From positions 1 through 39,386 of the forward strand of contig JAIBAE010000037.1 of the NCBI GenBank assembly GCA_019695345.1: a stretch of DNA of 39,386 nt, in the 5' to 3' direction. The translations under genes were made by a program, and so were the position numbers. Each line of letters opens with the position of its first letter. Position 1 is the first letter of the stretch. This document shows positions 689 through 39,386 of this stretch, in pieces. The DNA comes from Bacteroidota bacterium. Its GTDB lineage: Bacteria > Bacteroidota > Ignavibacteria > Kapaibacteriales > NICIL-2. The notes under the pieces are model-generated. The model was not told where the DNA came from. It ran no database searches and saw nothing but the letters and a program-made list of their open reading frames with translations.

Positions 689-738
689 GGTATTGATGTT
701 TCTGTTATACTTATTTATCTAATTAAGAATATGCTGTC

Positions 739-1281: not shown

Positions 1282-1318
1282 TGATTCTCCTGATAGCTGT
1301 ATTATTTATATTCAATAA

Positions 1319-2707
1319 TTAATGTTCTTCGTGTTCATCGTGATGATGATGTGGTTGCGCATTAGGCATTACACCTTTTACTTCCGCAATTGCAATCACG
1401 GGAATAAATTTCGCAAACAACAAGAACAAGGTTAAGAAGATTCCAAAAGTGCCGGCAAAAATCGAAACCTCCACCCATGTCGGTGAGTAATATCCCCAAC
1501 TTGATGGTAAGAAGTCATGGTGAAGTGAGGTTGAGATAATAGTAAAACGCTCAAACCACATTCCGATGTTTACAAAGATTGAGATTACAAACATGACAGG
1601 AATGCTTCTACGCAATTTTGCAAACCAGAACACTTGTGGTGAAATAACATTACACAACACCATTGTCCAGTAAGCCCAAGCGTAATCACCGGTAGCACGG
1701 TTTAAGAAAACAAAGCCTTCGTATTTATTACCTGAGTATTGCGCTATAAACATTTCCATAGCATACGCATATCCCACCATCATACCTGTAGCAAGGATAA
1801 TCTTATTCATATTATCCAAGTGCTTTAAGGTAATGTACTCTTTTAAGTCTAGAATTTCACGGGCAATCACTAACAGTGTTACCACCATCGCAAAACCGGA
1901 GAAAATAGCACCGGCAACGAAGTATGGTGGGAAGATTGTTGTGTGCCAACCTGGAAGTATACCAACGGTAAAGTCAAAACTCACCACCGAGTGTACTGAA
2001 AGTACCAGCGGTGTACTTAATCCGGCTAAAATCATATAAGCCATCTCGTAGTGATGCCACTTACGCATCGAGCCATCCCAACCTAACGAGAATATTGTAT
2101 ACACCTTTTTAGCAATATTCGATTTTACATATTCACGCATAGTAGCTAAATCAGGCACCATACCAATAAACCAGAACATCAACGATACCAATAAATAGGT
2201 GTTTACCGCAAACACGTCCCATTCAAGTGGCGAACGGAAGTTAGTCCACATATTCATCTGGTTACCCGGTGTAGGAATCAACCATGTAAACAACCATTGG
2301 CGTCCGGTGTGAGAAAGTACCATAGTAGTAGCATTCAATACCGCAAAGATTGTCATAGCTTCAGCCGAGCGGTTTATGGCAGTACGCCACTTCTGACGGA
2401 ATAAGAAAAGAATAGCGGAGATTAGTGTACCGGCGTGACCAATACCAACCCAAAATACGAAGTTGGTAATATCCCAACCCCAGCCAATCGGATTGTTCAA
2501 GCCCCAAACCCCGATACCGTTAAACACGGTGTATAAAATACACCCAATACCCCAAGCCATTAACGTTGCCGAAAAACCCAATGCAGTTAAAAACTTCATA
2601 TTAGGTTTCGATTCGGCAATCCCTGCAATCTTTGCTGTAATATCATGCAGCGTCGGATTGCCTAAAATTAGCGGCTCACGTTCGTGACGAATTGCTGTTG
2701 TTTGCAT
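1319..2707 (-). CDS. actC: Alternative complex III NrfD-like quinol-binding subunit ActC
   Basis: This 462-residue polytopic protein belongs to the NrfD/PsrC superfamily and has about ten predicted membrane helices. ActC holds the quinol site of alternative complex III and passes electrons to the ActB iron-sulfur clusters at the periplasmic face. Recognisable stretches include [33 protein letters not shown] and [18 protein letters not shown]. The C-terminus is rich in histidine ([10 protein letters not shown]), which may bind metal but could simply be a soluble tail. It is separated from actB by 131 bases, the widest gap in the operon, and that gap holds a half-copy of the intergenic repeat family described below. 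There is no sign of truncation. Confidence 0.95.
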
Positions 2708-2746
2708 ACTCTAACGAATAAATGTTATACGTTTAATTTTTCTTTG

Positions 2747-2812
2747 TTGTTATCACAGCGGCACCGGAAAATTATCTTCCAATTACCAATGCCTTGCCGG
2801 ACAAAATCCTCA
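2747..2812 (+). repeat. Half-copy of intergenic inverted-repeat element, in actB-actC gap
   Basis: The stretch begins with TTGTTATCACA followed by GCGGCACCGG (2747-2767), a diverged form of the box TTGCTATCGCA-NN-ACGGCACC found at seven other intergenic sites in the window. The second box, GCCGGACAAAATCCTC, starts at 2796, 49 bases after box 1. This spacing is the same as in the copies at 7074 and 21230. No mirrored right half is seen, so this is a half-copy. It sits inside an operon, so it is probably transcribed as part of the actA-F mRNA. Confidence 0.6.
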
Positions 2813-2838
2813 TGCTTCAAACTCGCCAACATCATAGA

Positions 2839-5800: not shown

Positions 5801-5910
5801 ACAGCATCATACCCTGGTGCAAATTCTTCCTGAACACCTTCAGGACTACCTGACAAATCATTAAGATTTTTCCAGTATGTCTGTGTTTGAGATGACTCGT
5901 ATTTCGACAT
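2839..5910 (-). CDS. actB: Alternative complex III molybdopterin-oxidoreductase-like / iron-sulfur subunit ActB
   Basis: This 1023-residue protein is a fusion of a molybdopterin-oxidoreductase-like domain (about residues 80-720) and a PsrB-type iron-sulfur domain (about 770-1000). The N-terminus has a twin-arginine motif (SRRSFM, Arg46-Arg47) followed by a lipobox-like Cys64, so it is likely exported folded through Tat and possibly lipidated. The ferredoxin domain has cysteine groups CTGCNACVIAC, CQHCENAPCENVC, CVGTRYCLNNC and a last group CTFC...CQQAC. In the third group a non-cysteine replaces the usual second cysteine, which fits the single [3Fe-4S] cluster known for ActB beside three [4Fe-4S] clusters. 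In characterised ActB the Mo-type domain carries no molybdenum cofactor. The gene follows actA by 70 bases. Confidence 0.96.
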   Translation of the reverse strand: MSKYESSQTQTYWKNLNDLSGSPEGVQEEFAPGYDAVPTFESPISRRSFMAILSASMAVTAAACRRPDHRLVPAVKGVEYITPGLPNYYTTVFMHKNAAQPILMKVREGRPVKVEGNDMHPVVRGKSGAYTQAELMNLYDPDRIRQTVVGRNSSDKKSGGFSTPSNAITMIAKAINEAKDSGKETRVLMAEHCSPSLDALIKEVETNNPSVKFVTVPSIVADGASIANSALFGIDGEFVPDVSAADVIVSIDNDFLGTDKNSVYHTAKFASKRRPSKDNPVMSKVYVAESTYSLTGSNADIRVKVSPNDYDGFVVALYNAIASAKGMATMSGGAGKYNAHIQKCAHDLVAAGDKSCVLVGPHLSPFANGVGMAINSMLGSIGEGKVFKNVLPMSNAKGNGIDTLRNDLRSGKVDVVLFCDTNAEYNADSDLKNLLSSVKNRFAYSLYDDETANICSIAIPAAHQFESWSDAISFDGTLSIQQPLILPLNEGSLSTGDFVLTLAKAVNPAMFAEVPNFFTYVKTRWMQVVGDDKGWEKALREGFVTSISTTSVGSANTGAINGLKKADAINSKYVVCITPSYGVYDGAYTNNPWMLECPDPITKHVWENVALMSKKTAEGLNVVDNRVINVKVGAASIDLPVMIQPGMEDGLIATTLGWGRYTGNIGKEYGSNAYKLSKTAQSVGYFGAEITDTGNKNVVARTQGYFHYQHAKGTEWDPNADESKYRDIVRDMTFADVQKGNVIKKQEEFAGKEAEGKKHIIPLDLNQGYKYKGHKWGMVIDTSSCTGCNACVIACQSENNISTVGKEQVIRGREMHWIRLDRYYKGEPENPQTVVEAMICQHCENAPCENVCPVAATTHSPEGLNEMTYNRCVGTRYCLNNCPYKVRRFNFLDYRENMYRDKMGNANPSPLQYVFNPEVTVRMRGVMEKCTFCVQRINEAKYHAKDNGHARVPDGDLVTACQQACPADAIYFGNTNDPESKVSKMMNSQRSFLVLEELNVRPSVGYLAKVRNIENEHKAEHHG

Positions 5911-5980
5911 GATACTTCTGTTGATATTGTTAACAAATTTTCTATATCATAATGCTTGCAACGTATGCAAACAACCTACG

Positions 5981-6745
5981 TTAATGGTGGCATGCAGAAC
6001 AATTCTCTGGTCCGTATCCCGGAACCTTAGGATGTGCAATACCGTCTACTTCTTTTTTAGGAATATCAGTTTCAAACTGACCAAACTGTGGCTCAGTAAT
6101 TGGTCGTACTCTACCATCAACCCCTTTAACCAAATCTGGATTATGCGATTTAAACATTGCCGCAACATCATTCTGGTTTGGCATGTTTACACGAGCTCCG
6201 GTAAAGATACCCGATATCTCGCGTGCTGGTATAATTAATTTCTCCGGATTACGATGGCAGTCTAAACACCAACCCATTGATAAAGGTTTGTTTTGCGCAA
6301 TCACACCTTGCTCTTCAACTTTACCGTGGCACGATTCACAGTCAATCTGATTGCGGATATGGCGGCTGTGGTTAAAGTACACATAGTCCGGTAATTTGTG
6401 AACACGTTTCCACTCAATTGGAGTACCGTTTTCCCAACTATCACGAACTGGTTTTAACTTCGGGCTTTCGGGTAAAATCACAAGATGGCATCCCATACAT
6501 GTGCTGGTTGCCGGAACTGGTGAGTGTTCTGATTTCTCCACACCGGAGTGACAGTATTGGCAATGCATTCCCAGCTGCCCTGCATGGAGTTTATGCGAAA
6601 ACGGTACCGGTTGTTGTGGACGGTACCCGGTATCTGTAACTCTGTTTTGTAAACCAAAGAAAGCAATCGTTACCAAAACAAACAAACCAAGAGCACCACC
6701 AATGATACCCTTTTTAATAGTCATGTCTGCGGATCTTGAAAACAT
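5981..6745 (-). CDS. actA: Alternative complex III pentahaem cytochrome c subunit ActA
   Basis: The 254-residue protein has one N-terminal membrane helix (about residues 12-31) and five haem c attachment motifs: CQYCH (62-66), CMGCH (83-87), CESCH (136-140), CLDCH (160-164) and CSACH (249-253, at the extreme C-terminus). Five CxxCH motifs in this arrangement identify the pentahaem subunit of alternative complex III. Further histidines such as those in FSHKLHAG and YFNHSRH are likely distal ligands. The start at 6745 (MFSRSADM) is preceded by a weak AAGGG. A second ATG at 6724 would shorten the protein by seven residues and cannot be excluded. It is the first structural subunit gene of the operon, 36 bases after a small membrane-protein gene. 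Confidence 0.96.
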   Translation of the reverse strand: MFSRSADMTIKKGIIGGALGLFVLVTIAFFGLQNRVTDTGYRPQQPVPFSHKLHAGQLGMHCQYCHSGVEKSEHSPVPATSTCMGCHLVILPESPKLKPVRDSWENGTPIEWKRVHKLPDYVYFNHSRHIRNQIDCESCHGKVEEQGVIAQNKPLSMGWCLDCHRNPEKLIIPAREISGIFTGARVNMPNQNDVAAMFKSHNPDLVKGVDGRVRPITEPQFGQFETDIPKKEVDGIAHPKVPGYGPENCSACHH

Positions 6746-6781
6746 ATTTCAACCCTTTTGATACGGAAATTATTTATCAAT

Positions 6782-7030
6782 TTAATTGTGTGCCTGTTTT
6801 AACGCCGAATGCTTCTGAAATTGCCATCGCATAAAGAAGTAACCAAACAATAATAGTCCGGTAAACATTGCTAAAAAGAACACAACACTCCAAGAATAAC
6901 TTTCACCAATTCCTGCATCGCCCGAACCTGCATCGTAAGCATCCTTACAATTTGGGCAAGACATCAGTGTTGAATATGCCTGCAAGAGCAATACAACAAC
7001 GGATGCAAAAAATAGTTGAACGTTTTTCAT
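6782..7030 (-). CDS. Small CPNCK-motif membrane protein at head of ACIII operon
   Basis: I do not recognise a named family. The 82-residue product has a hydrophobic N-terminal helix (residues 6-22) ending just before SCPNCKDAYDAG, so a CxxC pair (Cys25, Cys28) sits on the outer face at the end of the helix or at a new N-terminus after cleavage. A second helix follows at about residues 47-67, and the C-terminus is short and basic. It lies 36 bases upstream of actA in the same orientation, which makes it the probable first gene of the ACIII operon. A membrane-tethered CxxC near a multihaem cytochrome operon suggests a metal, thiol or haem-delivery accessory role, but that is inference only. Confidence 0.75.
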   Translation of the reverse strand: MKNVQLFFASVVVLLLQAYSTLMSCPNCKDAYDAGSGDAGIGESYSWSVVFFLAMFTGLLLFGYFFMRWQFQKHSALKQAHN

Positions 7031-7042
7031 TTAACAAAATAC

Positions 7043-7061
7043 ATCAGTTTACAAAGCTGAT
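7043..7061. promoter_or_regulatory. Palindrome ATCAG-N9-CTGAT upstream of ACIII operon
   Basis: Perfect 5-base arms (7043-7047 and 7057-7061) flank a 9-base centre, 13 bases upstream of the ATG of the first ACIII operon gene. A similar palindrome with the same arms and an 11-base centre occurs upstream of the oxidase operon at 13795-13815. It could be an operator or a small leader hairpin; the arms are short enough that chance is possible. Confidence 0.25.
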
Positions 7062-7073
7062 ACTAATTATCTG

Positions 7074-7246
7074 TTGCTATCGCAGTCGGCTCCGAACCAT
7101 GTACAATAAAGAACCTAACTGTGCCGATAGAAACATTCATTTTTCAAATCACCTTCACGGTGAAGGATTTTTTATTAAGCGAGTATTTTCTCCCGCCGAA
7201 TAACGGATTTATTGTTGATGCCATTTGGTGCGGTCTGCGGTAGCAA
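7074..7246. repeat. Intergenic inverted-repeat element, full copy (173 bp)
   Basis: The left end is TTGCTATCGCA at 7074-7084 followed by GTCGGCTCCGAAC. The right end is the inverse, TTTGGTGCGGTCTGCGG then TAGCAA (7224-7246). The second box, GCCGAT, begins 49 bases from the left end. A CCTTCA/TGAAGG hairpin followed by a T-run lies in the middle (7152-7173). The right end stops one base before the stop codon of the DUF420 gene (7248), so the element fills the 217-base space between the oxidase and ACIII operons. Confidence 0.75.
7152..7173 (+). terminator. Possible hairpin terminator inside repeat element
   Basis: CCTTCA at 7152-7157 pairs with TGAAGG at 7161-7166 across a CGG loop, followed by ATTTTTTATT on the plus strand. 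The T-run is on the plus side although flanking genes are minus-strand, so it would act on antisense transcription, or on minus-strand transcripts only as a hairpin without a U-tract. Confidence 0.35.
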
Positions 7247-7247
7247 A

Positions 7248-7808
7248 CTAAGAAGCAAACCAAACGTACAACATACAATACACTAACACCCCTGTAACCG
7301 TTACATATAACCACAAAGGAAAAGTAATCCTTGCAATTTTTTTATGTTTTTCAAATTCTCCGCGCCAAGAACGTAGTATGGTAAAAAGTGCTAACGGAAC
7401 AATAATAGCAGCAAGCACAATATGTGTGATGAGTATCAGGAAATACACCCATCGGATTATCCCCTCGCCTGTAAACACAGTTGGCTCTGTTTTTTGGCTA
7501 TGATAAAACACATACGATAAAAGAAATATACATGAAAGTATAAATGCCGAAATCATAAGTGTTTTATGCAACGCAATCTTTTTGTTTCGTATGGCAATGA
7601 ATCCTACTGTTAACAATACTGCGCAAGTACCATTGATAAACGCATGTAATTTGGGAGCATACTCTACATTATACTTCCCCATACTTAGTGCACTTGGAAA
7701 CATCATTAAAAATGCAACCAATAATATCACGACAATGGTTAGAGAGTATACAATTAATGATATACCTTTTTCATCTATGCGTTGTATGTACGAATCTGAT
7801 GTTTTCAA
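7248..7808 (-). CDS. DUF420 membrane protein (cytochrome oxidase-associated)
   Basis: The 186-residue protein has five or six hydrophobic helices and matches the DUF420 (YozB-like) family. Features include KLHAFINGTCAVLL near residues 53-66, an HKTLMISAF segment in the middle and THIVLAAIIVPLALFTILR towards the C-terminus. Conserved histidines within helices are typical, and DUF420 genes are usually found beside SCO and haem-copper oxidase genes, but the biochemical role is not established. Its start is four bases after the SCO gene stop, making it the last gene of the oxidase operon. A repeat element begins one base after its stop codon. Confidence 0.85.
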   Translation of the reverse strand: MKTSDSYIQRIDEKGISLIVYSLTIVVILLVAFLMMFPSALSMGKYNVEYAPKLHAFINGTCAVLLTVGFIAIRNKKIALHKTLMISAFILSCIFLLSYVFYHSQKTEPTVFTGEGIIRWVYFLILITHIVLAAIIVPLALFTILRSWRGEFEKHKKIARITFPLWLYVTVTGVLVYCMLYVWFAS

Positions 7809-7812
7809 TGAA

Positions 7813-8412
7813 CTACTTCTCTTGTAAAAGTGAAGAAATACTATTACGAAGTTCTTGTACTTTTACAGAGTCCATACTATCATAATATCCTCGAATCATC
7901 CCCTTTTTATCCACAAGTATAAACCTTGGTGAATGTGCAGATGGTTCTACCGGGTCGCTAACTAAGAACCCTTTTACCGCTAATCCTCTAACACTATCTA
8001 ATGGCATCCGAACAAAGAACCAAGAGTAAGGATTTGCATTGTATTCTTTTGCATAATCAGCCAGCACTTCCTTAGTGTCTGTTTCAGGATCAACAGAAAT
8101 TGACACAAATTTGACATTGCTCTTCGAATATTCCTGTTGTAAAGTTGATTGCCTACCATTCATCACAGGACAAACACCTGAGCATGAAGTAAACATAAAT
8201 GATGCAACCCACACATTACCTTTCAAAGAACTACTGTTAAATGTAGTACCATCAGAGTTTTCTGCCGTGAATATTGGAGCAGACTTCACTTCGGGTAATT
8301 CACTCTTATATTCTAAGTTTTGCTTTGGTTCATTACAACTGTGTATTGTAGTACTTATGAGTAATACAATCAAACAAAATGCAAAACTACCTATACTTTT
8401 CCATGCAATCAT
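7813..8412 (-). CDS. SCO1/SenC family copper chaperone lipoprotein
   Basis: This 199-residue thioredoxin-fold protein belongs to the SCO family, which delivers copper to the CuA site of cytochrome oxidase subunit II. The copper-binding motif CSGVCP is visible (TSCSGVCPVMNG, about residues 78-89), and the third ligand is the histidine in SAHSPRFILVD near residue 160. The N-terminus has a hydrophobic segment ending IHSCNEP, a plausible lipobox-type cleavage site, so it is probably an outer-face lipoprotein. The gene starts seven bases after the cox IV stop and four bases before DUF420, so it is transcribed with the oxidase it matures. Confidence 0.92.
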   Translation of the reverse strand: MIAWKSIGSFAFCLIVLLISTTIHSCNEPKQNLEYKSELPEVKSAPIFTAENSDGTTFNSSSLKGNVWVASFMFTSCSGVCPVMNGRQSTLQQEYSKSNVKFVSISVDPETDTKEVLADYAKEYNANPYSWFFVRMPLDSVRGLAVKGFLVSDPVEPSAHSPRFILVDKKGMIRGYYDSMDSVKVQELRNSISSLLQEK

Positions 8413-8419
8413 GAACTTC

Positions 8420-8743
8420 TTATGGATGATTAAATGTTTCTAAAACATTTAATGCAAACACCATTACTATAAATAAGAAAATAGGAACATACACAAATGC
8501 ACGGAGATATTTATTATCAAATTTTAGGTGCATGAATATATACATTACCAGAACAACTTTTATAGTTGCGATGATTAAGCCAACAGTCATGTTTACATAC
8601 GTACCACCTGTATGTCCAAACATTGTGGCAAAAAAAGTATCTATTTGTGAGGCAAGAATTGTTAACGCTGTAAAACCCATTAACAAATAGAACACCTTCA
8701 TATATGATTTTTTGATAGCTGCTTCGTCGTGTGAACCTGCCAT
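8420..8743 (-). CDS. ctaF: Cytochrome c oxidase subunit IV
   Basis: This 107-residue protein has three transmembrane helices and the prokaryotic COX4 signature, including IKVVLVMYIFMHLKFDNKYLR. Subunit IV is a non-catalytic membrane subunit that stabilises the aa3-type oxidase. It starts 19 bases after the cox III stop and is followed by the SCO gene after seven bases. Length and position are typical of oxidase operons that pair with alternative complex III. Confidence 0.9.
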   Translation of the reverse strand: MAGSHDEAAIKKSYMKVFYLLMGFTALTILASQIDTFFATMFGHTGGTYVNMTVGLIIATIKVVLVMYIFMHLKFDNKYLRAFVYVPIFLFIVMVFALNVLETFNHP

Positions 8744-8762
8744 TTCTTTCTCCTTAAATTAA

Positions 8763-9374
8763 TTAATGTCCACCATGATGTGCACCCGGGAATAACAGGT
8801 ACAACGCCGGGAAAAGGAAAATCCAAACTAAGTCAACAAAGTGCCAATACAAACCAAGTATTTCAACGCGAACATGATTTGTATATCCTTTTTTGGTAAA
8901 AGAACGTAAGAACATCCATACCATAGGTATAATTCCGCCAATTACGTGAGCAGCGTGGAAACCGGTCATCATAAAATAGAAAGCAAAAAAGATACTTTTA
9001 CTTGGTAGCAAATGATGCTCAAATTTTGCACTATACTCAAAGTATTTTACAACTAAAAAGCCAAATGCACATAAAATAGTTATTCCCATGAACACTTGAA
9101 ACATTTTGGTATTTTTCTTTTCCAAGTTCAAAATGGAGAGGGCCATGGTTAATGAACTTGTTATCAGGAATACCGTGTTAATTGTTGCCATAGCAACATT
9201 AAGATGCGTTGTGCCTTCCATGAAGATATCGATGTTTGCATTACGCAACACGGTAAACGCTCCGAAGAAACCGGAGAAAAACATAATTTCAGAAGCGAGA
9301 AATGCCCACATTACCATTTTTCCATGCGGTATTCCGCTGACCGGTTCGTGACGTAAATCTAAAGCTAATGACAT
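8763..9374 (-). CDS. ctaE: Cytochrome c oxidase subunit III
   Basis: The 203-residue protein is a five-helix form of oxidase subunit III. Diagnostic stretches are KMVMWAFLASEIMFFSGFFGAF near the start, FYFMMTGFHAAHVIGG in the middle and GLYWHFVDLVWIFLFPALYL near the end. Subunit III is cofactor-free and supports proton uptake and stability of subunit I. The short five-helix form without the first two helices of mitochondrial COX3 is normal in bacterial A2-type oxidases. The gene lies 23 bases after haem O synthase and 19 before subunit IV. Confidence 0.95.
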   Translation of the reverse strand: MSLALDLRHEPVSGIPHGKMVMWAFLASEIMFFSGFFGAFTVLRNANIDIFMEGTTHLNVAMATINTVFLITSSLTMALSILNLEKKNTKMFQVFMGITILCAFGFLVVKYFEYSAKFEHHLLPSKSIFFAFYFMMTGFHAAHVIGGIIPMVWMFLRSFTKKGYTNHVRVEILGLYWHFVDLVWIFLFPALYLLFPGAHHGGH

Positions 9375-9397
9375 ATATATTGCCTTTTAATAATTTA

Positions 9398-10318
9398 TCA
9401 GAGTTTATCTACAAACATAAATATGAATAAGCCCATTAAGTAGGCATACGAAGCAAGTAGCGTTTTTCTGGCATTTACTACTGTAGTTGATTGTATTAGG
9501 ATTATTGCTGAATACAGTAAATAACCACTCAGTAACAATGAACCTAACAAATACAAATATCCGGTAATTCCAAAGTAGGTTAACGATAAACCAACCGGAA
9601 TTAGAACAAGCACATATATAAGTAAATGTTTAGCTGATATTGTACTACCGTTTTCTTGATTTCCAAGCAGAACAAATCCACCTTGTTCATAATCTTTTCT
9701 GTACATAATAGCTAAAGCCAAAAAGTGAGGCATTTGCCATATAAACATAATAAGAAAAATTATCCATGCACCGGCATCAACTGAATTCAAACCAGCAGTC
9801 CATCCTCCCATTGCGGGTAATGCACCTGGTATTCCACCTAACACCATTGCAAACCAAGTTTTCTTTTTTAATGGTGTATAGAGAGCGATATAACTAAGAT
9901 GGGTAACTAAGGCTAAGCCTAAAGTTAACATGTTAATATATCCCAGAAAAAGTGCACCTAATACCGAGGTAATCACTCCAAAAATTAGTGCATGGACTGG
10001 TGAAATAATTCCTGATGGAATTGGCCGATTCTTAGTTCTTTTCATCAAACCATCATCATAGCGTTCCAAATACATATTTAATGTACAAGCACCAGAACTA
10101 ATTAATGCTGTTCCAAGCATTGCAATAACAAAATGGAACAAATTTTGGATTGATGTAAAGTATGCAACATCACGTATTGAAAGATAATACCCAGCTGCGG
10201 CTGTAACTACAACCATTTGTGTAATACCTGGCTTTGTAAGCTGATAATATGCGCGTATAGAATCAGCAGTTGTTACGTGCTGTTCTTCAATGATATTTTC
10301 TGTTACTGCTGCTTCCAA
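9398..10318 (-). CDS. ctaB: Protohaem IX farnesyltransferase (haem O synthase)
   Basis: The 306-residue polytopic protein is a UbiA-superfamily prenyltransferase that attaches a farnesyl group to haem B to make haem O, the precursor of haem A. The first aspartate-rich motif is recognisable as NMYLERYDDGLMKRTKNRP followed by IPSG (about residues 81-103), and a second polar loop contains YRKDYEQGGF around residues 205-215. The N-terminal region TKPGITQMV is typical. It is encoded between subunits I and III with gaps of 19 and 23 bases. No haem A synthase (ctaA) is present in the window, so that gene must be elsewhere if the oxidase uses haem A. Confidence 0.95.
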   Translation of the reverse strand: MEAAVTENIIEEQHVTTADSIRAYYQLTKPGITQMVVVTAAAGYYLSIRDVAYFTSIQNLFHFVIAMLGTALISSGACTLNMYLERYDDGLMKRTKNRPIPSGIISPVHALIFGVITSVLGALFLGYINMLTLGLALVTHLSYIALYTPLKKKTWFAMVLGGIPGALPAMGGWTAGLNSVDAGAWIIFLIMFIWQMPHFLALAIMYRKDYEQGGFVLLGNQENGSTISAKHLLIYVLVLIPVGLSLTYFGITGYLYLLGSLLLSGYLLYSAIILIQSTTVVNARKTLLASYAYLMGLFIFMFVDKL

Positions 10319-10337
10319 TGGTTAATCTTTTAAATAA

Positions 10338-12167
10338 TTAATGTGCATGTGAAGGATTCAATTTCTCAGCCTCAATTTCTTCCTCAGTTGGAGGAACCCA
10401 TTGTGGCCAATAATCTGATTCACGATTTTCATGCGAGTATTCATACGGTCCACGATACACTGTAATATCCGTATCAAAATTTCCGTGTCCGGGATGCGGA
10501 GGGGCTGCCCACTCCAAAGTATTTGAACGCCAAGGATTTCTTGGTGCTTTCTTTCCGTAATTAAGATTCCAAATAATATTAAATAACAGAATAAACTGTG
10601 TAAACCCTAAACCGATAGCTGACCAAGTAATAAATGCATTCATTCCTTGGAAAGGTTTTAGGAAGTCATAAACAGTAGGGTCTGCTATACGGCGCATATG
10701 TCCTCCCACACCAATAATGTGCATGGGGAAGAAAGTAAGATTGAAGAAAATGAATGACCAAATTACGTGCATTCTACCCCAACCTTCATTAAGCATTTTA
10801 CCGTACATTTTTGGGAACCAGTAGTAGATTGCAGAGAATACACCAAATATTGATGCACCAAACAACACATAATGGAAGTGTGCAACAATAAAGTATGTAT
10901 CGTGGATGTAAATATCAACAGCTGCCGAAGCCATGAAGATACCGCTCAAACCACCAATAATAAACATGGAAACAAATGCTACAGCACACATCATTGCTGC
11001 TGTGTAGCGAATACTTCCGCCCCATAATGTACCAAGCCAGTTAAAAATCTTAATAGCTGATGGCACCGCAATAACAATGGTTGAAAGTACGAATGTAGTT
11101 CCAAGTAACGGACTCATACCGGATTGAAACATATGGTGCCCCCATACAATAAATCCTAAGAACCCGATACCCATGATAGCAAAAATCATGGCTTTGTAAC
11201 CGAATATTGGCTTGCGTGCAAACGTTGCCATAACATCGGATACTACACCCATTGACGGAAGTATCATAATATAAACAGCAGGGTGCGAGTAGAACCAAAA
11301 CAAATGCTGGAACAACAACGGTTGTCCGCCACCTGACCAATGGTTTGTGCCATCTAGTGCTGATGTTGCTAATAGATTTGTTGGGATAAAAAAGCTAGTA
11401 TGAAGAAAGTTATCAAAGAAAAGCATTACTAAGGCAGATGCTAACACGGGTGTACCTAATGTAATAAGGACAGCGGTGATAAATAATGCCCAAATAGTCA
11501 TAGGCATTCTGAACATCGACATACCTTTAGCCCGTTTATTCAGTACAGTAGCAATGTAATTTATACCACCCATAATGGAGGCAAAACCAACAAGGAACAA
11601 CCCTACAATCCACATTGTTTGCCCTGCGCCTTGTATTGCAGATAGTGGCGGATAAGCCGTCCACCCTGCTGTAGCCATACCACTTTCCAAAACAAAACCG
11701 CCCATTAACAACATCGCTGCAGGTATATTCAACCAAAAGGAGAACATATTCAGTGTCGGTAATGCCATATCATCAGTACCAATCATTAATGGAATGCAGA
11801 AGTTACCAATCATTCCATTTACCATTGGTATGATAACAAGGAATAACATAATAGCACCGTGCATCGTCATTAACTGCGAGTAGAATCCCGGCTGGATAGC
11901 ACCAGTAGATCCTCCCCATGCTTCAGGCAGCAAGCTCCCTAAAAATGGTACCGGTTCACCCGGAAATGCAATTTGCCAACGTACTAACAAAGCTGCTAAA
12001 CCACCAACCATAAAGAAAAACAAGGTGGTGGTCATAAATTGTTTAGCAATAACTTTATGATCGTTGGAAAAAATATATTTACGGACAAAAGAAAGACTAT
12101 GATGATCATGTGCATGCGAATCACCATGATCATGGTGGGCTTCGTGTGCAGATGCAATTGCTTCCAT
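10338..12167 (-). CDS. ctaD: Cytochrome c oxidase subunit I, A2-type
   Basis: This 609-residue protein is the catalytic subunit of a haem-copper oxidase. The haem a ligand is His103 (TMHGAIM), the CuB histidines are in WGHHMF (His344-His345) and WFYSHPAVY (His295), and the last haem ligands are in the AHFHYVLFG segment (His430, His432). The D-channel glutamate of A1 enzymes (HPEVY) is replaced by YSHPAVY at 293-299. That YSHP motif defines A2-type oxidases such as the Rhodothermus and Thermus caa3 enzymes. The K-channel lysine is present as Lys373 (AIKIFNW). The N-terminus is histidine-rich. It starts 42 bases after subunit II. Confidence 0.98.
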   Translation of the reverse strand: MEAIASAHEAHHDHGDSHAHDHHSLSFVRKYIFSNDHKVIAKQFMTTTLFFFMVGGLAALLVRWQIAFPGEPVPFLGSLLPEAWGGSTGAIQPGFYSQLMTMHGAIMLFLVIIPMVNGMIGNFCIPLMIGTDDMALPTLNMFSFWLNIPAAMLLMGGFVLESGMATAGWTAYPPLSAIQGAGQTMWIVGLFLVGFASIMGGINYIATVLNKRAKGMSMFRMPMTIWALFITAVLITLGTPVLASALVMLFFDNFLHTSFFIPTNLLATSALDGTNHWSGGGQPLLFQHLFWFYSHPAVYIMILPSMGVVSDVMATFARKPIFGYKAMIFAIMGIGFLGFIVWGHHMFQSGMSPLLGTTFVLSTIVIAVPSAIKIFNWLGTLWGGSIRYTAAMMCAVAFVSMFIIGGLSGIFMASAAVDIYIHDTYFIVAHFHYVLFGASIFGVFSAIYYWFPKMYGKMLNEGWGRMHVIWSFIFFNLTFFPMHIIGVGGHMRRIADPTVYDFLKPFQGMNAFITWSAIGLGFTQFILLFNIIWNLNYGKKAPRNPWRSNTLEWAAPPHPGHGNFDTDITVYRGPYEYSHENRESDYWPQWVPPTEEEIEAEKLNPSHAH

Positions 12168-12209
12168 ATATTATACCTGTTGTATTTTTTCTAAGAAAGT
12201 CTAACTGAA

Positions 12210-13064
12210 TTATTTACCATGTTCTGTTGTACCACCTGCTGTAACAGCAGGTGTAGCTGTTGTATCAGCTGTAGGTGCAGTAGTACCCAAGGCTTGAGCT
12301 AATTGCTCAGATTTAGCTTTGGTTTGCTCATCGTACCATTTGTTGTAATCATCAAGTGAATGCATGTATAATAGTCCACGCATATTATAATGGCTTGCGC
12401 CACATAATTCCGCACAGGCAATTTCATACTTTCCGGCTTTAGTACCATTAAACCATACTTTCATCCAGGAACCCGGTAAAGCATCTTGCTTTACACGGAA
12501 ATTTGGTAAGAAGAAACTATGTAAAACATCTTTAGCCGATAAATTCACTAAGATGTTTTTATTAATCGGCAAGTGCATTTCTGTTTCAATGATAAAATCA
12601 TCTTTACCATGTTCATCCTTTGGGTCAACACCAAAGATGTTATCATTTGTTTTGAACTCAGGTGCTCTACGGCCCAATATTCCGTCGGCACCCGGATAGC
12701 GATACACCCAGTTAAACTGTTGCCCCATAACATCTATAGTTACATCCGGTTTAGGAATATGGCTAACGTTTTTAGTTTTTTCCCAAGCACTATCTGTATA
12801 GATACCTAACCCCGCAAATAAAAACGTAGGCAGAATGGTCCATGTAAATTCCAACATATTATTACCATGATATCCAATTGCGCGTACGCCTGGTTTTTCA
12901 CGGTATTTTATCAAGAAATATATAAGTAATGCGTAGGTTAAGATAAATATGGCAACACAGATATACCATATCAAAATAAACATCCCGTCCAACTCTGCCC
13001 CAAACGTACTTACGTTTTCCGGGAACCAAGCTGGAAAGTCGAAGTATTTAAACCAATCGAACAT
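12210..13064 (-). CDS. ctaC: Cytochrome c oxidase subunit II (CuA)
   Basis: The product carries two N-terminal membrane helices and a periplasmic cupredoxin domain. CuA ligands are in LHSFFLPNFRVKQD and in CAELCGASHYNM, giving the complete Cys-x3-Cys-x3-His-x2-Met set. I start it at the ATG at 13064 (MFDWFKYF, 284 residues). A GTG at 13100 would add twelve residues but is less likely. No CxxCH follows the cupredoxin domain; the C-terminus is an Ala/Thr-rich tail. So, unlike true caa3 enzymes, the haem c domain is not fused here, and a separate cytochrome c gene lies 67 bases upstream. Confidence 0.94.
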   Translation of the reverse strand: MFDWFKYFDFPAWFPENVSTFGAELDGMFILIWYICVAIFILTYALLIYFLIKYREKPGVRAIGYHGNNMLEFTWTILPTFLFAGLGIYTDSAWEKTKNVSHIPKPDVTIDVMGQQFNWVYRYPGADGILGRRAPEFKTNDNIFGVDPKDEHGKDDFIIETEMHLPINKNILVNLSAKDVLHSFFLPNFRVKQDALPGSWMKVWFNGTKAGKYEIACAELCGASHYNMRGLLYMHSLDDYNKWYDEQTKAKSEQLAQALGTTAPTADTTATPAVTAGGTTEHGK

Positions 13065-13131
13065 ATATATAGATAGAGTAACTTTTAAAATAGTACACAC
13101 AGGTATGTGTGTTGATTTATCTCAATAAAAA

Positions 13132-13671
13132 TTATAACGGTTGTTGTAATTCGGGCTCCGTCATTGCACCGTTTCTCGATTTCGTTTTTTCACGAACATC
13201 TTTTACTTGGTCAGCTGTAATTGCGCCGCCGGTATTTCCCCAACTTGTTCGTACATACGATAAAATTTCTGCAATTTGCTGGTCGTCAAAGTTTGATTTC
13301 CAAGCAGCCATTACACCATTAATTTTCTGACCGTTACGTTCAATTTCTCCTTTAAATCCATGCAATACAATACGGATTGGTTTTGTTGCATCAGCATCGT
13401 TTGCCATTGCAGAACCTGCCAACGGAGGAATTGCACCGGGTAAACCTTTACCGGCACCACCATGACATGCAGCACAGTTCTTACTAAAAAGTGCCTGGCC
13501 TGGTACACCGACATCTGGGCCTTTTGATGATTTCGCATTAGGATCAACCCAAACAGGGTCGTCACCTTGTTTTGTAAAAAAACCTTTGATATTACACGAG
13601 GTAATAAATAGTGTTGATGAAGCAACCCCAAATATTACGAACAAACGGAAGGCAATAATATATTTCCCCAT
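13132..13671 (-). CDS. Monohaem cytochrome c lipoprotein, oxidase operon
   Basis: Starting at the ATG at 13671 the protein has 179 residues: a hydrophobic leader ending FITSCN (lipobox Cys26), a linker, and a class I cytochrome c domain with CAACH at residues 66-70 and the probable methionine ligand Met121 in INGVMAAW. A TTG start at 13707 would add twelve residues, but the ATG gives a normal signal sequence. It is the first gene of the oxidase operon, directly before subunit II, which lacks a fused haem c domain. It is therefore the likely electron donor or a loosely attached subunit standing in for that domain. Confidence 0.9.
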   Translation of the reverse strand: MGKYIIAFRLFVIFGVASSTLFITSCNIKGFFTKQGDDPVWVDPNAKSSKGPDVGVPGQALFSKNCAACHGGAGKGLPGAIPPLAGSAMANDADATKPIRIVLHGFKGEIERNGQKINGVMAAWKSNFDDQQIAEILSYVRTSWGNTGGAITADQVKDVREKTKSRNGAMTEPELQQPL

Positions 13672-13720
13672 AAAACTGTAGCTAATGTACAATATTAATA
13701 TTATCAATAACCGACGGCCA

Positions 13721-31589: not shown

Positions 31590-32759
31590 CTATTGAAGAT
31601 TTCCAATCACAGTAAACACAAGAGCACTCAATAATAATGTTATGGAAATCGCATATGTAAAAGCCTTATTGCGTATTCCGTTGGATAAAATCGGCAGACA
31701 AACTAGCAATGAAATCCATCCTGTAATAATGGTAACGGCTAAATCTGCCGGAAGCACTTTCATCAAAAAAAACGGTGCTGCGAAATACCATTCTGGGCGT
31801 ACATTATCAGCTACTATCACTCCGGATACAAACGGTTTACCAACGGTAAAACCAGTAACACTTGCTAACAACAAAATGCTCAAAATAGTTATCTGTATAA
31901 CCGGTACTTGTAGTTTTGCAGTACCAACTAATCGTTTCATCCCATATATACATAACAACATCATGGTTGGCATCCAAACAACATGAAGTGAGTACATTGT
32001 AGGTAATAACTTTACATCATCAAACTTATTTAACAAACCTTCAATCAGGTCGCCAACGAGTGGAAGGTATGTTCTGGCAGTAGATAAAACAATCATTGCC
32101 GCTTCATGTCCTCTGATATCCCAAGGTAAAACTGAGCCACTCCATGCTGCAAAGGTAACCACTATAAACAACAATGATGTATATACCCACAATAGCTCAA
32201 AAGGTTGTTGATAATATCTGCGTAGTATGTACAGTCCTATAACAACTACAATGCAACAAACTAATAAGTAAGAACTAACAATATGTACTGTCCGTACAAA
32301 AGATTTTTCAAGCAAACGTACACTCATGTTAGTACTATTTACACCCAAACCATAATCAACTTCAGTGTCGGGTATTAATAACTGGAAATCATCTCCACGA
32401 ACAACTTTTAATGGTTTATTGGTTGTTGGATTCAATAAACAACTGTCCTGCTCAGAGTACGGCAAATACACTACATCCTGTATACTTTGGTACAATGTAT
32501 CACCATTAGTATCTACAATTACTTTAGTAGGCAGTACAGGAATAAGTTTCCGGTGTTTTACATCCTGTAATACTTCAGCATTGGGTTGGTAGTATAATGT
32601 AAGCACCATCCCCGAAATACATTGAACTACAAGTGTTGCTAAAAGAATTTTAAGTATAACATGGAACAACTTATCTGTATGCAGTAAGTCTTGAAGATTT
32701 GCTCGTTGAACAAACCACCTATTAACAGACTCAACCTTATGATGCAATTTCGTGTTCAT
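31590..32759 (-). CDS. Cytochrome b-like protein with only one haem site preserved
   Basis: This 389-residue protein aligns with cytochrome b/b6 fused to the start of subunit IV. Helix A contains QCISGMVLTLYYQP (46-59), helix B FVRTVHIVSSY (His159), the cd-loop GSVLPWD (208-214), helix D SLHVVWMP (His259), and the quinol-site motif PEWY is at 322-325. Each haem-binding helix normally has a second histidine 14-15 residues on; here those places are Val173 and Gly273/Met274. So the haem bL pair is kept and the haem bH pair is lost. About 70 extra residues lie between helices A and B. No Rieske gene is nearby. It starts one base after the trmH stop. Confidence 0.8.
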   Translation of the reverse strand: MNTKLHHKVESVNRWFVQRANLQDLLHTDKLFHVILKILLATLVVQCISGMVLTLYYQPNAEVLQDVKHRKLIPVLPTKVIVDTNGDTLYQSIQDVVYLPYSEQDSCLLNPTTNKPLKVVRGDDFQLLIPDTEVDYGLGVNSTNMSVRLLEKSFVRTVHIVSSYLLVCCIVVVIGLYILRRYYQQPFELLWVYTSLLFIVVTFAAWSGSVLPWDIRGHEAAMIVLSTARTYLPLVGDLIEGLLNKFDDVKLLPTMYSLHVVWMPTMMLLCIYGMKRLVGTAKLQVPVIQITILSILLLASVTGFTVGKPFVSGVIVADNVRPEWYFAAPFFLMKVLPADLAVTIITGWISLLVCLPILSNGIRNKAFTYAISITLLLSALVFTVIGNLQ

Positions 32760-32760
32760 G

Positions 32761-33366
32761 TTATTTCATTAACCACTCACAAAGTGTGTCGTTCAAGACT
32801 TCAGATGTTAACTGTGGTTGATCGTACAATCCTGCTTTCATCCGTTGCCTGTATGCTTCAAATAATGTTACAGCACAAGCGACTGAAATGTTAAGACTCT
32901 GTACTATTCCTGCCTGCGGTATCAACATATTCCCATCTGCTTTACTAATTGCTTCTTCAGTTACTCCGCTGTGTTCATTTCCAAACACTATTGCCAGCGG
33001 TTTGGTAAAATCAACTTCATACAGTCCAATTGCACTTGAAGTTAAATGAGTGGTAAGTATTGTTTTTCCTTCATTTCTTAAATGATTATAACAACCCTCA
33101 ATAGAATCATGTTGTATCTGATGTACCCACTTTCTGGCACTTGCGGAACTGCGCTCTCCTAAACTTGGAAATTTGTCGTTTCTGTAAACTAAATGAACAT
33201 TCAAAATTCCGGTAGCATCGCAGCTTCTCAACACAGCAGACACATTGTGCGGGTCATCAACATTCTCTAAAACTATAGTTATATCAGTCTGTCTCCGTGA
33301 TAGCACAGATTTAAGTTTCTCCACTCGTTCCGGAGTTCCTAATTTTTCCGGGTCAGCATTCATCAT
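32761..33366 (-). CDS. tRNA/rRNA 2'-O-methyltransferase, TrmH (SpoU) family
   Basis: The protein has the SPOUT-fold motifs in order: IVLENVDDPHNVSAVLRSCDATG (motif 1 with the conserved Asn and Arg), AIVFGNEHSGVTEEA (motif 2) and MLIPQAGIVQSLNISVACAVTLFEA (motif 3, knot). These identify a SpoU methyltransferase, most like TrmH, which makes 2'-O-methylguanosine at position 18 of tRNA. A start at 33366 or 33363 gives about 200 residues. The frame is open to 33411 but the extra N-terminus is unlike the family. It lies between nuoD and the cytochrome b gene with gaps of 61 bases and one base. Confidence 0.88.
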   Translation of the reverse strand: MMNADPEKLGTPERVEKLKSVLSRRQTDITIVLENVDDPHNVSAVLRSCDATGILNVHLVYRNDKFPSLGERSSASARKWVHQIQHDSIEGCYNHLRNEGKTILTTHLTSSAIGLYEVDFTKPLAIVFGNEHSGVTEEAISKADGNMLIPQAGIVQSLNISVACAVTLFEAYRQRMKAGLYDQPQLTSEVLNDTLCEWLMK

Positions 33367-33427
33367 AATACAAAAAAGAAAGGGACAACATTTTGTGTCG
33401 TCCCATTTCACGTAAATCTAAAAATTA

Positions 33428-34714
33428 TTATTTATCTGCTTCACCCATTACAGGGTCAATACCACCAATAATAGCAACAACATCCGAAACCATTGAACCT
33501 TCGGTCATGAACGATAATGCTTGTAGATTAGATGACGATGGTGAACGTATCTTCAACTTCCAAGGATGTCCTGTTCCATCACTTACAATAAAGAACCCTA
33601 ACTCACCTTTTGGAGATTCAATAGCAGTGTAGGTTTCGCCTACAGGTGGTGCAGCGCCAAAATTTACAATAATGAAATCATTAATCAACTCTTCCATTTT
33701 GGTATAAATTTCAGCTTTTTTTGCAGTAACATTAACAGGGTCGTTTAATCTTACTTCACCTGTTGGTGGATTATCCAACAACTGATGAATCATTTTTATG
33801 CTCTCTCTGCACTCTTTCATTCTCACCATATAACGACCATAACAATCACAATCGTTATTGGTAATCACATCAAAGTCTAATCTATCATACCATAAATAAG
33901 GTTGGTCACGGCGTAAATCTCTTGCTATACCGGAACCACGTAATGCCGGACCTGTCAATCCCAAAGTTATCGCTTTTTCTGGTGGGCAATAACCAACACC
34001 AGCCATGCGGTCTACAAATATTCTGTTTCTGTTTACTAAAGCTTCACAAGCAGTTAATTCTTCTGCAAATTTTGTAACCCAATCTCTGATTTTCTTCAAC
34101 ACCCAATCTGGGATATCATTTGCAACACCACCAATTCGTGTGTAGCTGGTTGTAAAACGAGCTCCACAAATCAGTTCAAATAGGTCATACATTTTCTCAC
34201 GTTCGGCAAATGTCCACAAGAAGACGGTCAACGCTCCCACATCCATACACGTTGCACCGGCAGCCAACAAGTGTGACGATAATCGCGCTAATTCACAAAT
34301 TAATGTACGTATCCACTGAGCCCTGGGTGGAGCTTCAATTCCCATAGCATTTTCAATTGCCAATGCTATTCCGGTGTTGTTACTTAACGGAGCAAGATAA
34401 TCCAAACGGTCGGTATGCGGTATAAACTCATGCAGAGTAGTGTTCTCAGCTAATTTTTCGTAGCCGCGATGCAAATACCCTAATTCAGGAACACACTTAA
34501 TAACAGTTTCGCCATCCAAGCGTAACAGAACCCGCAATACACCGTGCGTAGCAGGATGTTGAGGTCCCATATTCAGCACCATATCATTTTCTAACGGGTC
34601 TTCAAATAATACCGATGTGTCTTTATCAAGAAGTTCTTTGTATATCTTATTCTGGCGTGTGTACCGGGCTCGTTCTAGTTTAGCCGACCCCGAACCAAGG
34701 ATAATTTCGTCCAT
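33428..34714 (-). CDS. nuoD: NADH-quinone oxidoreductase subunit D
   Basis: The 428-residue protein is the 49-kDa subunit of complex I, which helps form the quinone-binding cavity next to NuoB. Typical stretches are MGPQHPATHGVLRVLLRLDGE (near residues 49-69), LGYLHRGYEKLAEN, PLSNNTGIALAIE and the C-terminal IGGIDPVMGEAD. The first 40 residues are a non-conserved extension. A good AGGAGAT lies before the ATG. No other complex I genes are present on either side; it is followed by trmH. So this subunit gene is separated from the rest of the nuo set, at least within this window. Confidence 0.96.
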   Translation of the reverse strand: MDEIILGSGSAKLERARYTRQNKIYKELLDKDTSVLFEDPLENDMVLNMGPQHPATHGVLRVLLRLDGETVIKCVPELGYLHRGYEKLAENTTLHEFIPHTDRLDYLAPLSNNTGIALAIENAMGIEAPPRAQWIRTLICELARLSSHLLAAGATCMDVGALTVFLWTFAEREKMYDLFELICGARFTTSYTRIGGVANDIPDWVLKKIRDWVTKFAEELTACEALVNRNRIFVDRMAGVGYCPPEKAITLGLTGPALRGSGIARDLRRDQPYLWYDRLDFDVITNNDCDCYGRYMVRMKECRESIKMIHQLLDNPPTGEVRLNDPVNVTAKKAEIYTKMEELINDFIIVNFGAAPPVGETYTAIESPKGELGFFIVSDGTGHPWKLKIRSPSSSNLQALSFMTEGSMVSDVVAIIGGIDPVMGEADK

Positions 34715-36312: not shown

Positions 36313-39300
36313 ATGGAGCAGTATATGCAAACGATGAAGTATATGAAGGCTAGCCTTCGAGTTGTTATTCTTCTGCTGATAAGTATTAGCAGTAGCATAA
36401 CTACTTATGCCCAAAACTTCTCGATTTTTAATGTGGACGCATCAAAATTTCCAACTATGTCTGCGCGCATAGTTGCAGTTGATGCCCAAGGTAAGGAATA
36501 CACCAACTTCCAGGCAAATGAATTTGATTTGAAGGAAAATGGTGTATCTATGAATAGTTCAGTTGCCATCCGATGTACAACAATTTCAGTTGCTCCGGCA
36601 GCAGATGTAATTCTTGTTGTTGATAGAAGCGGATCGATGAGTGATAAAATTGGGAACGAAACCCGATGGGACTGGGTGAAACAAGGTGTGACAGAATTCG
36701 TGAATCAGTTCCCATTTAACCCGCCATCTCAAGTTGCACTTCTATCGTTTGGCTCTACAGCACAGTTAGATCAAGATTTTGTCAATAATAAAACACCCAT
36801 TATTAATGCGATAAATACCATATTACCTCAAGGTGGCACAAACTACAACTATCCATGTTTAGATACCAATATAGGTATTATTAAATTGATGAAAAAGAGA
36901 AATGCGATCAACCCTCAGATACGTAAAATTGTAATTTTCCTAACCGATGGAGACCCACAGGTTACGCCATTAACTGACTCAATAATCAGAGGACTTAATG
37001 GACAGGGAGTTGTATTCTACTCTATTACTGTTGGTCTACCTATGAATCCTGAGTTACGTAGGATTAGCAACAGCACAGGTGGCAAAACATTTGAGGTATT
37101 TACTAAAGATAAACTTGCTGAAGTATATCGTTTAATTGCTCTTGAAACAACTTTACAAACACTGTGCTCAATTGAATGGACAGCACCATATGGTTGTGAC
37201 TTAACTAGTTTGATACGTAATGTTGATTGTGGTTTTAAACGGCTTAGTCCACCATTAACTTCGTCAACTCAATATGTAGCCCCGGATAGCTCTATAGCTA
37301 AAGTAGGCTTAAGTTCTAGTATCGTATATTTTGGAGACCCTGATAAAGATCCACCAAATAATACACAAACAAACACCATTACTTTTACTGCTACTAACAC
37401 TCCATTAAGAATTGATTCTTTGGATATCAAACCAACGACTTTCTTTAGAATCACAGATATGGCAGGAAAGTCATATCCTATTTATTTAAAAAAGGGTGAA
37501 TCTTGGACTCCAACAATAACATTCACTCAACAAGGTTCAAAGGCATATCGTCAGGCGAAACTTATAATGATTGGATATCCATGCCCACCTACTGTTACTT
37601 TAGTTGGTGGACAAACTTCTGTTCAAGTAGTGTATCCTAACGGTAATGAGATTATTTCCGCATGTGATAGCATTAATATTCAGTGGGCCGGTGTAGGCCC
37701 TCAGCAAGAAGTTGCAATTTCATATACAACAGATGGTACTGTAGCCAATCCAAACTGGAACTTGATTACTGGCAGCGCAAAAGGGTTATCGTACCGTTGG
37801 AAACCACCGGTACAAGGTTTAAAATACAGATTGCGTATAACTGCAAATCCACCTAAAGATTACTTATGGGTATCAACTGTTAGTAGTACAGAGATGGATT
37901 CATGTAGATCTATAGCGTTAGATGCACAGCAATTATTTGTCCATACAGCGGGCTACTTTAATGGTTCTGCGCGTTTGGATGCACAAACACAGCTTACTTC
38001 AGCCGGATATGCAGATGCCTTTATTGCCCGATATGATTCTGATGGAAATTTAATTTGGGCTAAATCCGGTGGTGGAAACAACGATGATAGAGCAATAGCA
38101 GTTACAACAGATAATAACGACGGAATTTGGGTAACTGGTAATTTTACAAGTAAATCTGTACAATTTGGTGCAGTTCAGTTAAACATGCCCAACAATTTAG
38201 ATATTAGTAACTTCTTCCTTGTAAAATACGATGTAAATGGCAATGCATCCATAGCTCGCCAAGGTGGCGGAACAAGCACAGCAGCATGCAATGCTAAAGT
38301 TGATTCCATTGCTTTTTTCAATAATCAGATTTATGTGTTTGGAAAATTTACCGGAACAATGAATATTTCTCCTTCTGTTAATCCACCATATTATGAACGG
38401 TGGTCTGCGGTTGGAACAAATCCAAATCCATTTACTGCAGTGTTTGATTTAAATGGAAAGTGTGTTACACATTATTCAAATTTTGTAAGTGCTCCATATA
38501 CAAAATCAACTGTTACCGATAAAAATGGTAACCTTTATGAAACCGGTGGATTTTCAGGTCAAATGAAGAGTGGTTCCATAACATCTAACAGCGCAGGATC
38601 TTTTGATGCCTATGTACGTAAGTATGGCGGTCAGTCCAGTAGTGCAGACATCAGCGACACAACTTTTAAGGTAACATCTCCAATTCTGCAATCAAATTAT
38701 CCTACACTAGATGTTGGTAAAATTGCACAAGGCCAACAAGGAAGTAAAACATTTACTGTGGCTGTTTGTAATAAAGGGGATTTACCATTATTAATTGATT
38801 CTACCTCAACCATTGTAGGTATAAACGGTTCAGAATTCAAACTCATTTCGCGTATTGCAAAGAGAAACCTTTTCCCTGGTGAGTGTTTGGATTTGGAAAT
38901 ACTATTTTCCCCAACAGACATTGGTCCGCGCAGTGCAACACTCAATGTAATACCTAACTGTGGGCAGACCTTAACAATACCAATTATAGGGGAAGGTTTA
39001 AAACCATGTGGTTTCAGAAACCAAACACCAACAATTGGATCATCAAGTGTGAATATTCCCAAAACTGTATCACGTTCAACCTCACCAAACTCATGTATTC
39101 TTATCAATGATGCTATAGAGGCAAAAGCTATCTTAGTTCAGTTAGTTGGGACCAATGCCAGTGAGTTTGATGTTACAGTTACCGCAACCGGTTCAAATCA
39201 AAGTTGTAAACCCAATGGAACAGGTTGTACAATAACATTACAACCCGGCGAGTGTTTAGCATTTGATGCTGTATTTACTCCTCTTTCTTCTGGCACAAGA

Positions 39301-39386
39301 ACAGCCAAATTAGTTTTTAGTACCAACCGCGAACGTCGGGGTAATCATCAAATAAGTATTGCCGGAGAGGGTACTGCACCGCGATT
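36313..39386 (+). CDS. Large secreted vWA / propeller / choice-of-anchor-D protein (3' partial)
   Basis: A frame from the ATG at 36313 is open to the window end (1024 codons, no stop). The signal peptide ends TYAQ near residue 33. A von Willebrand A domain spans about 97-285 with the metal site DRSGSMS (Asp104, Ser106, Ser108). Next come immunoglobulin-like regions (about 335-520), then a propeller-like stretch at about 543-776 of SBBP type (DAFIARYDSDGNLIWAKSGG). At least two choice-of-anchor-D/HYDIN-type beta domains follow, near 796-900 and 905-1020 (VGKIAQGQQGSKTFTVAVCN). Such modular proteins are surface-exposed or secreted in FCB bacteria. Any C-terminal sorting domain lies outside the window. 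Starts at 36325, 36334 or 36343 are also possible. Confidence 0.85.
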   Translation, partial: MEQYMQTMKYMKASLRVVILLLISISSSITTYAQNFSIFNVDASKFPTMSARIVAVDAQGKEYTNFQANEFDLKENGVSMNSSVAIRCTTISVAPAADVILVVDRSGSMSDKIGNETRWDWVKQGVTEFVNQFPFNPPSQVALLSFGSTAQLDQDFVNNKTPIINAINTILPQGGTNYNYPCLDTNIGIIKLMKKRNAINPQIRKIVIFLTDGDPQVTPLTDSIIRGLNGQGVVFYSITVGLPMNPELRRISNSTGGKTFEVFTKDKLAEVYRLIALETTLQTLCSIEWTAPYGCDLTSLIRNVDCGFKRLSPPLTSSTQYVAPDSSIAKVGLSSSIVYFGDPDKDPPNNTQTNTITFTATNTPLRIDSLDIKPTTFFRITDMAGKSYPIYLKKGESWTPTITFTQQGSKAYRQAKLIMIGYPCPPTVTLVGGQTSVQVVYPNGNEIISACDSINIQWAGVGPQQEVAISYTTDGTVANPNWNLITGSAKGLSYRWKPPVQGLKYRLRITANPPKDYLWVSTVSSTEMDSCRSIALDAQQLFVHTAGYFNGSARLDAQTQLTSAGYADAFIARYDSDGNLIWAKSGGGNNDDRAIAVTTDNNDGIWVTGNFTSKSVQFGAVQLNMPNNLDISNFFLVKYDVNGNASIARQGGGTSTAACNAKVDSIAFFNNQIYVFGKFTGTMNISPSVNPPYYERWSAVGTNPNPFTAVFDLNGKCVTHYSNFVSAPYTKSTVTDKNGNLYETGGFSGQMKSGSITSNSAGSFDAYVRKYGGQSSSADISDTTFKVTSPILQSNYPTLDVGKIAQGQQGSKTFTVAVCNKGDLPLLIDSTSTIVGINGSEFKLISRIAKRNLFPGECLDLEILFSPTDIGPRSATLNVIPNCGQTLTIPIIGEGLKPCGFRNQTPTIGSSSVNIPKTVSRSTSPNSCILINDAIEAKAILVQLVGTNASEFDVTVTATGSNQSCKPNGTGCTITLQPGECLAFDAVFTPLSSGTRTAKLVFSTNRERRGNHQISIAGEGTAPR

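Follow-up and report, generated by a model that had tools for sequence, protein, structure and literature searches.

The cytochrome b gene at positions 31590..32759 (minus strand) of the window, that is, of the whole 39,386-nucleotide stretch of DNA that was analysed, encodes a protein which, judged by its sequence, has lost the haem bH site and conserved the haem bL site. The explanation that we somewhat favour is that this protein would belong to a minimal Rieske/cytochrome b complex with haem bL alone, carrying out linear, non-bifurcating oxidation of menaquinol beside alternative complex III. The one-haem, Rieske-paired anatomy as such is considered highly probable.

The gene comes from a Ca. 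Kapabacteria genome of 4.56 Mb (99.9% complete), and its product is a membrane protein of 389 residues. The Pfam models (PF13631/PF00033) Cytochrom_B_N_2 (E 1.9e-12) and Cytochrome_B (E 3.8e-9) matched it above their cut-offs, the Cytochrom_B_C match fell slightly under its own (18.6 versus 20.7 bits), and no second PF00033 match was present anywhere in the window's genome. A search of the PDB with a profile of 17 homologues returned cytochrome b/b6f subunits exclusively (best E 8.9e-31). The AlphaFold model is rough (mean pLDDT 59) and too weak for haem placement; at this low confidence, it comprises helices A to G after an N-terminal helix, and the insertion between A and B is partly beta in it. 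Re-alignment of the model by VIA-align gave Z scores of 10.2–13.0 over 242–298 residues, with each of the 50 chains listed being cytochrome b of a bc complex, and the Foldseek E-values were above 0.001. Both the profile match and the fold of the cytochrome b family, the latter read from this weak model, were present in the window protein.

The 17 divergent homologues are 18–27% identical to the window protein, and only seven columns of their alignment are invariant, H159 and H259 being two of them, so that the pattern exceeds chance. These two histidines, located on helix B (32283..32285, minus strand) and helix D (31983..31985, minus strand), are assigned to haem bL by position, as had been proposed in the sequence-only reading, and both are histidine in 71/71 cytochromes b surveyed from the class of the window's genome. 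The same holds for the bL-pocket glycines G50 on helix A (32610..32612, minus strand) and G208 on helix C (32136..32138, minus strand), which are glycine in 71/71. The partner places for haem bH had been read as Val173 on helix B (32241..32243, minus strand) and Gly273/Met274 on helix D (31938..31943, minus strand), and the alignment of class cytochromes b confirmed them: the helix B place holds histidine in 21/21 ordinary members and 0/47 bH-less ones, and at neither place does any of these 47 homologues carry a histidine. In this sample, which, like that of the phylum, was gathered as homologues of the window protein and leaves room for bH-less forms elsewhere in bacteria, both bH histidines are absent in 47/71 cytochromes b and present in 21/71 (the ordinary members), and the helix D histidine alone is retained in 3/71, two of them from family f9 outside the order and one from f3 (G062). 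All 47 bH-less members fall within one order, in families f1 (7), f2 (12), f3 (16), f5 (9), f28 (2) and f6 (1). The state was the same in every member found of the window protein's own family, f1, and no close homologue with the second histidines was found.

The pocket residues changed together with the ligands. In ordinary members, the glycines of the bH pocket precede those of the bL pocket by 14 residues on both helix A and helix C, and it is established for bc1 structures that glycines at these places line the two haem pockets. The corresponding places of the window protein are L36 (32652..32654, minus strand) and T194 (32178..32180, minus strand), which hold glycine in 21/21 and 20/21 ordinary members, respectively, and in 4/47 and 6/47 bH-less members, where bulkier residues have mostly taken over. 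The histidines and the pocket glycines were thus lost together, and the loss is confined to one membrane side, as would be expected if a single haem site had been given up and not from general decay. The expectation that haem bH should be absent is thus supported by both lost ligands and lost pocket glycines, on which the predicted absence rests. In a maximum-likelihood tree, the lack of bH was strongly clustered (2 changes versus 20 in shuffles), although the deep branches of this tree are long and partly of weak support, and family f1 is not united in it.

It had also been stated that no Rieske gene is near, which is correct for the surroundings of the gene in the window's genome, but the implied lack of a partner did not survive a genome search. 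Five Rieske-domain genes were found, and one of them (C143) is of the type that is operonic with bH-less cytochrome b in f3: with an HMM built from the operonic Rieske proteins, it scored 87 bits, versus 56, 56, 22 and 19 for the others. This gene is located on another contig than the cytochrome b gene and adjoins panC, as it does in the f1 relatives. The Rieske gene stands directly in front of cytochrome b in 17/17 f3 genomes with the gene and in 2/2 f28 genomes, and in several of the f3 genomes it runs into the beginning of the cytochrome b gene; in f1, f2 and f5, the Rieske and cytochrome b genes occupy separate places. When 123 genomes of the order, some of the surveyed genomes being incomplete assemblies, were searched with the Rieske alignment, a strong match (E<=1e-23) was found in 54/60 genomes with cytochrome b versus 1/63 without it (Fisher p 8e-27), and within the bH-less families in 47/48 versus 1/11 (Fisher p 2e-9); this threshold was set once the data had been inspected, and the p values ignore relatedness. 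The lone genome with the Rieske type and without cytochrome b, G002, is 86% complete. From this co-occurrence, we infer a physical Rieske/cytochrome b partnership in f1, where the genes are apart, and the synteny of C143 likewise points to such a partnership in the window's own genome.

In 14 aligned partner Rieske proteins, the cluster cysteines and histidines (CxH...CxxH) and the disulphide cysteines are invariant. Also invariant in these proteins is an Arg-Arg pair near the N-terminus, ahead of the membrane anchor, as in Tat-exported Rieske proteins; this alignment (A3) includes those from L079, L064-L067 and L057-L060. None of the loci read showed a dedicated c-type subunit of the cytochrome c1 or f kind beside the Rieske/cytochrome b pair. 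In f3, genomes of genus g6 (G043, G139 and others) have seemingly lost both the bH-less cytochrome b and the Rieske gene and have kept alternative complex III.

In bc complexes, the second quinol electron normally passes from bL through bH to the Qi site. Since there would be no bH here, the path from bL to Qi would be cut, and the earlier claim that a normal Q-cycle cannot run is supported by the apparent loss of the bH ligands and pocket. In the proposed mechanism, menaquinol would bind at the Qo site, and its first electron would pass to the Rieske cluster and from there to a c-type cytochrome. The second electron would reach haem bL and, without haem bH, could not cross the membrane to the Qi site, so it would go back to the Rieske chain, either via a Qo semiquinone or after bL-to-bL sharing in the dimer. 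Such a complex would operate as a linear quinol:cytochrome c oxidoreductase, with scalar protons released and no charge moved through haem b. Engineered or antimycin-blocked complexes are slow and leak superoxide, which counts against the linear model. At the same time, an engineered Rhodobacter bH knockout still reduces bL although it is cut off from Qi, and electrons pass from bL to bL within the Rhodobacter dimer fast enough to matter catalytically (PMC4330944).

The Qo motif PEWY (P322-E323-W324-Y325, residues 322-325; 31785..31796, minus strand) was confirmed as intact in the window protein. Among its relatives, P322 and W324 are near-invariant, and the glutamate and tyrosine are often lost: genus g3 has PxWH or PAWY; f2 has PSWY, PEWI, PAWF and similar forms; f3 has mostly PWWx; and f5 has PEWY or PAWY. 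Retention of Pro and Trp with drifting Glu and Tyr would fit a relaxed demand on bifurcation chemistry. The same drift is the main ground for doubting fast quinol oxidation in some members, and in the many relatives without the Qo Glu/Tyr, quinol oxidation may be impaired.

Intermediate forms were found in f9. One cytochrome b of this family, L055 from G050, has four histidines, a Rieske gene in front and the same insertion between helices A and B as the window protein. Two others, from G021 and G040 (L054:6312-7730 and L056:6479-7912), lie beside a Rieske gene, carry the insertion and retain three histidines: tryptophan replaces the helix B bH histidine, and the helix D histidine and both glycines are kept. 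Tryptophan occupies the helix B bH place also in most f5 members and several f3 members, where the helix D histidine is lost too. Read from the alignment and not as a dated series of events, these forms suggest an ordered loss of the bH histidines. We give about even odds to the wider proposal that the order holds a natural class of functional one-haem Rieske/cytochrome b complexes that would oxidise menaquinol without bifurcation, derived from a Q-cycle enzyme via four-His, then three-His plus Trp, then two-His states, with alternative complex III also doing the job of complex III.

The presence of alternative complex III in the host, asserted earlier, was borne out by its operon at 23-6745 of the window. 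Alternative complex III was rejected as a discriminator of the bH-less state, being encoded in 107/123 genomes of the order, including those with ordinary cytochrome b. In the stretch 23-13707, DUF420-like, SCO, caa3-type oxidase and cytochrome c genes come after those of alternative complex III, all of them on the minus strand, and at 36313-39384 the end of the contig truncates a large secreted protein that has a von Willebrand A-like segment. The cytochrome b gene itself begins one base downstream (TAA-C-ATG) of a trmH-like RNA methyltransferase gene (32761..33411, minus strand), which separates it from nuoD (33428..34714, minus strand), the sole PF00346 match of the window's genome; the order nuoD-trmH-cytb was found in 7/7 family members with the gene. 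In the window, nuoD is apart from any other complex I gene and in line with trmH and cytochrome b, an order kept in f1. The named relatives identified through NuoD belong to Ca. Kapabacteria and include the genomes KatS3mg039 and KatS3mg040.

This position in f1, a single base after trmH and in a row with the sole nuoD of the genome, gives some weight to a different explanation, in which a catalytically relaxed complex is kept mainly as a structural or assembly part, e.g. stabilising complex I or another respiratory assembly. The degraded Qo motif in genus g3, f2 and f3 points the same way, and a role of this kind was proposed for the bc1 without bH and Rieske ligands of acidophilic Acetobacteraceae (PMC10715153). 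We nevertheless regard this explanation as unlikely. The Rieske cluster and the bL ligands are invariant here, unlike in the Acetobacteraceae precedent, and no link to nuoD was seen in the f3, f28 and f9 loci. Moreover, the dN/dS values of close bH-less gene pairs (0.09-0.31) indicate purifying selection, somewhat weaker than that on two pairs of ordinary cytochrome b genes (0.05 and 0.13).

The extra segment on the outer side between helices A and B bears on another alternative. About 70 additional residues had been noted, and by loop length the insertion comprises about 74 (approximately 32355..32576, minus strand), the A-B stretch being 99 residues in the window protein versus 25 in most ordinary class members; in the low-confidence model, it is partly beta. 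Families f1, f2, f5 and f28 and most of f3 retain an outer insertion of considerable size, which the bH-less f6 lacks. Within f3, the segment measures 126 residues in the bH-less L127 (G172) versus 34 in L128 (G173). As a cause of haem loss, the insertion was rejected, because L055 combines it with four histidines and f6 lacks both the insertion and bH; the size noted earlier stands, with the correction that insertion and haem loss do not go together. Its wide retention could be taken to mean that bifurcation persists with another low-potential acceptor, either a protein docked at the outer insertion or the bL of the dimer partner and then quinone, and catalytically relevant bL-to-bL transfer in Rhodobacter (PMC4330944) would be in line with the second route. 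The distribution of the insertion, present in the four-histidine L055 and missing from the bH-less f6, argues against this reading, and neither a conserved extra ligand nor a partner gene was found, so that we consider persisting bifurcation quite improbable.

The sequence-only reading had left open whether the protein is a non-bifurcating quinol-linked subunit or a sensor. The former survives as part of the favoured linear complex. As for the latter, a single-haem redox sensor or regulator of the quinol pool would agree with one redox centre and with the degraded Qo motif of some members, but there is no adjacent signalling domain or regulator gene and the partner is a Rieske protein. Since the Rieske type is operonic with bH-less cytochrome b in f3 and co-occurs with it over the order, a stand-alone sensor is much less likely than a reduced complex, and we rate it as very unlikely.

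Binding of haem bH through non-histidine or otherwise unconventional ligands could be imagined from M274, which occupies the helix D +15 place in the window protein. This methionine is unique to the window protein among the 17, and the bH-pocket glycines have mostly given way to bulkier residues. Apart from Met1, none of the other histidines, methionines and cysteines of the window protein is shared by more than 3/17 homologues, so that no conserved replacement ligand, histidine or other, emerged, and a histidine five residues after H159 in f2 and f6, considered as a substitute ligand, is off the bH spacing. Retention of bH by such ligands is accordingly rated as extremely improbable. Sequencing error, frameshift or a decaying pseudogene, for which the draft metagenome assembly might speak, is scarcely credible given that the 47 homologues from different assemblies share the same state with open frames and dN/dS well below 1, which agrees with the earlier view of a conserved variant rather than a decaying gene.

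Rieske/cytochrome b complexes are regarded as defined by bifurcation between the Rieske cluster and a two-haem b chain. A lineage that naturally has Rieske and bL and no bH would offer a ready test of bL alone, of short-circuit control and of the stepwise dismantling of the Q-cycle. The finding of Rieske and cytochrome b also amends the account of Kapabacteria, in which an earlier report had detected no complex III genes (PMC6338057). A search of the open literature found no paper describing a bH-less complex from nature whose Rieske protein is intact, which does not prove absence; the only natural bH-less precedent found there is that of acidophilic Acetobacteraceae, in which the Rieske protein is lost or broken.

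With the cytochrome b of bc1, bcc and b6f complexes (PF00033/PF13631/PF00032), the window group shares helices A-G, the bL ligands and pocket glycines, the helix C-cd and ef parts of the Qo region and the Rieske partner, and differs from it in the lost bH ligands and pocket glycines, about 74 extra A-B residues and an often degraded Qo motif. Alternative complex III shares the quinol:cytochrome c role in these genomes, but its NrfD/molybdopterin-like architecture is unrelated. The f9 proteins of G021 and G040 (L054, L056) resemble the window group in the Rieske neighbour, the outer insertion and the replaced helix B bH histidine, whereas they still have the bH histidine of helix D and the two pocket glycines, which makes them an intermediate state. 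In Acidiphilium and Acidocella, Degli Esposti et al. (2023) reported a cytochrome b that lacks the bH histidines and is invariably accompanied by loss or breakage of the Rieske protein; they named it deranged and proposed that its role is structural (PMC10715153). This deranged bc1 likewise lacks both bH histidines, and linear electron transfer has been discussed for it (PMC10715153); its Rieske protein, however, is lost or without cluster ligands, whereas the window group has every Rieske ligand in place and keeps the pair throughout the order. The H212N bH knockout of Rhodobacter capsulatus, in which bL is kept and reducible and bH is removed together with the Qi connection (PMC4330944), is similar in this respect to the window group, but it is an artificial mutant, whereas the window group is natural and its bH pocket appears to have been filled by evolution.
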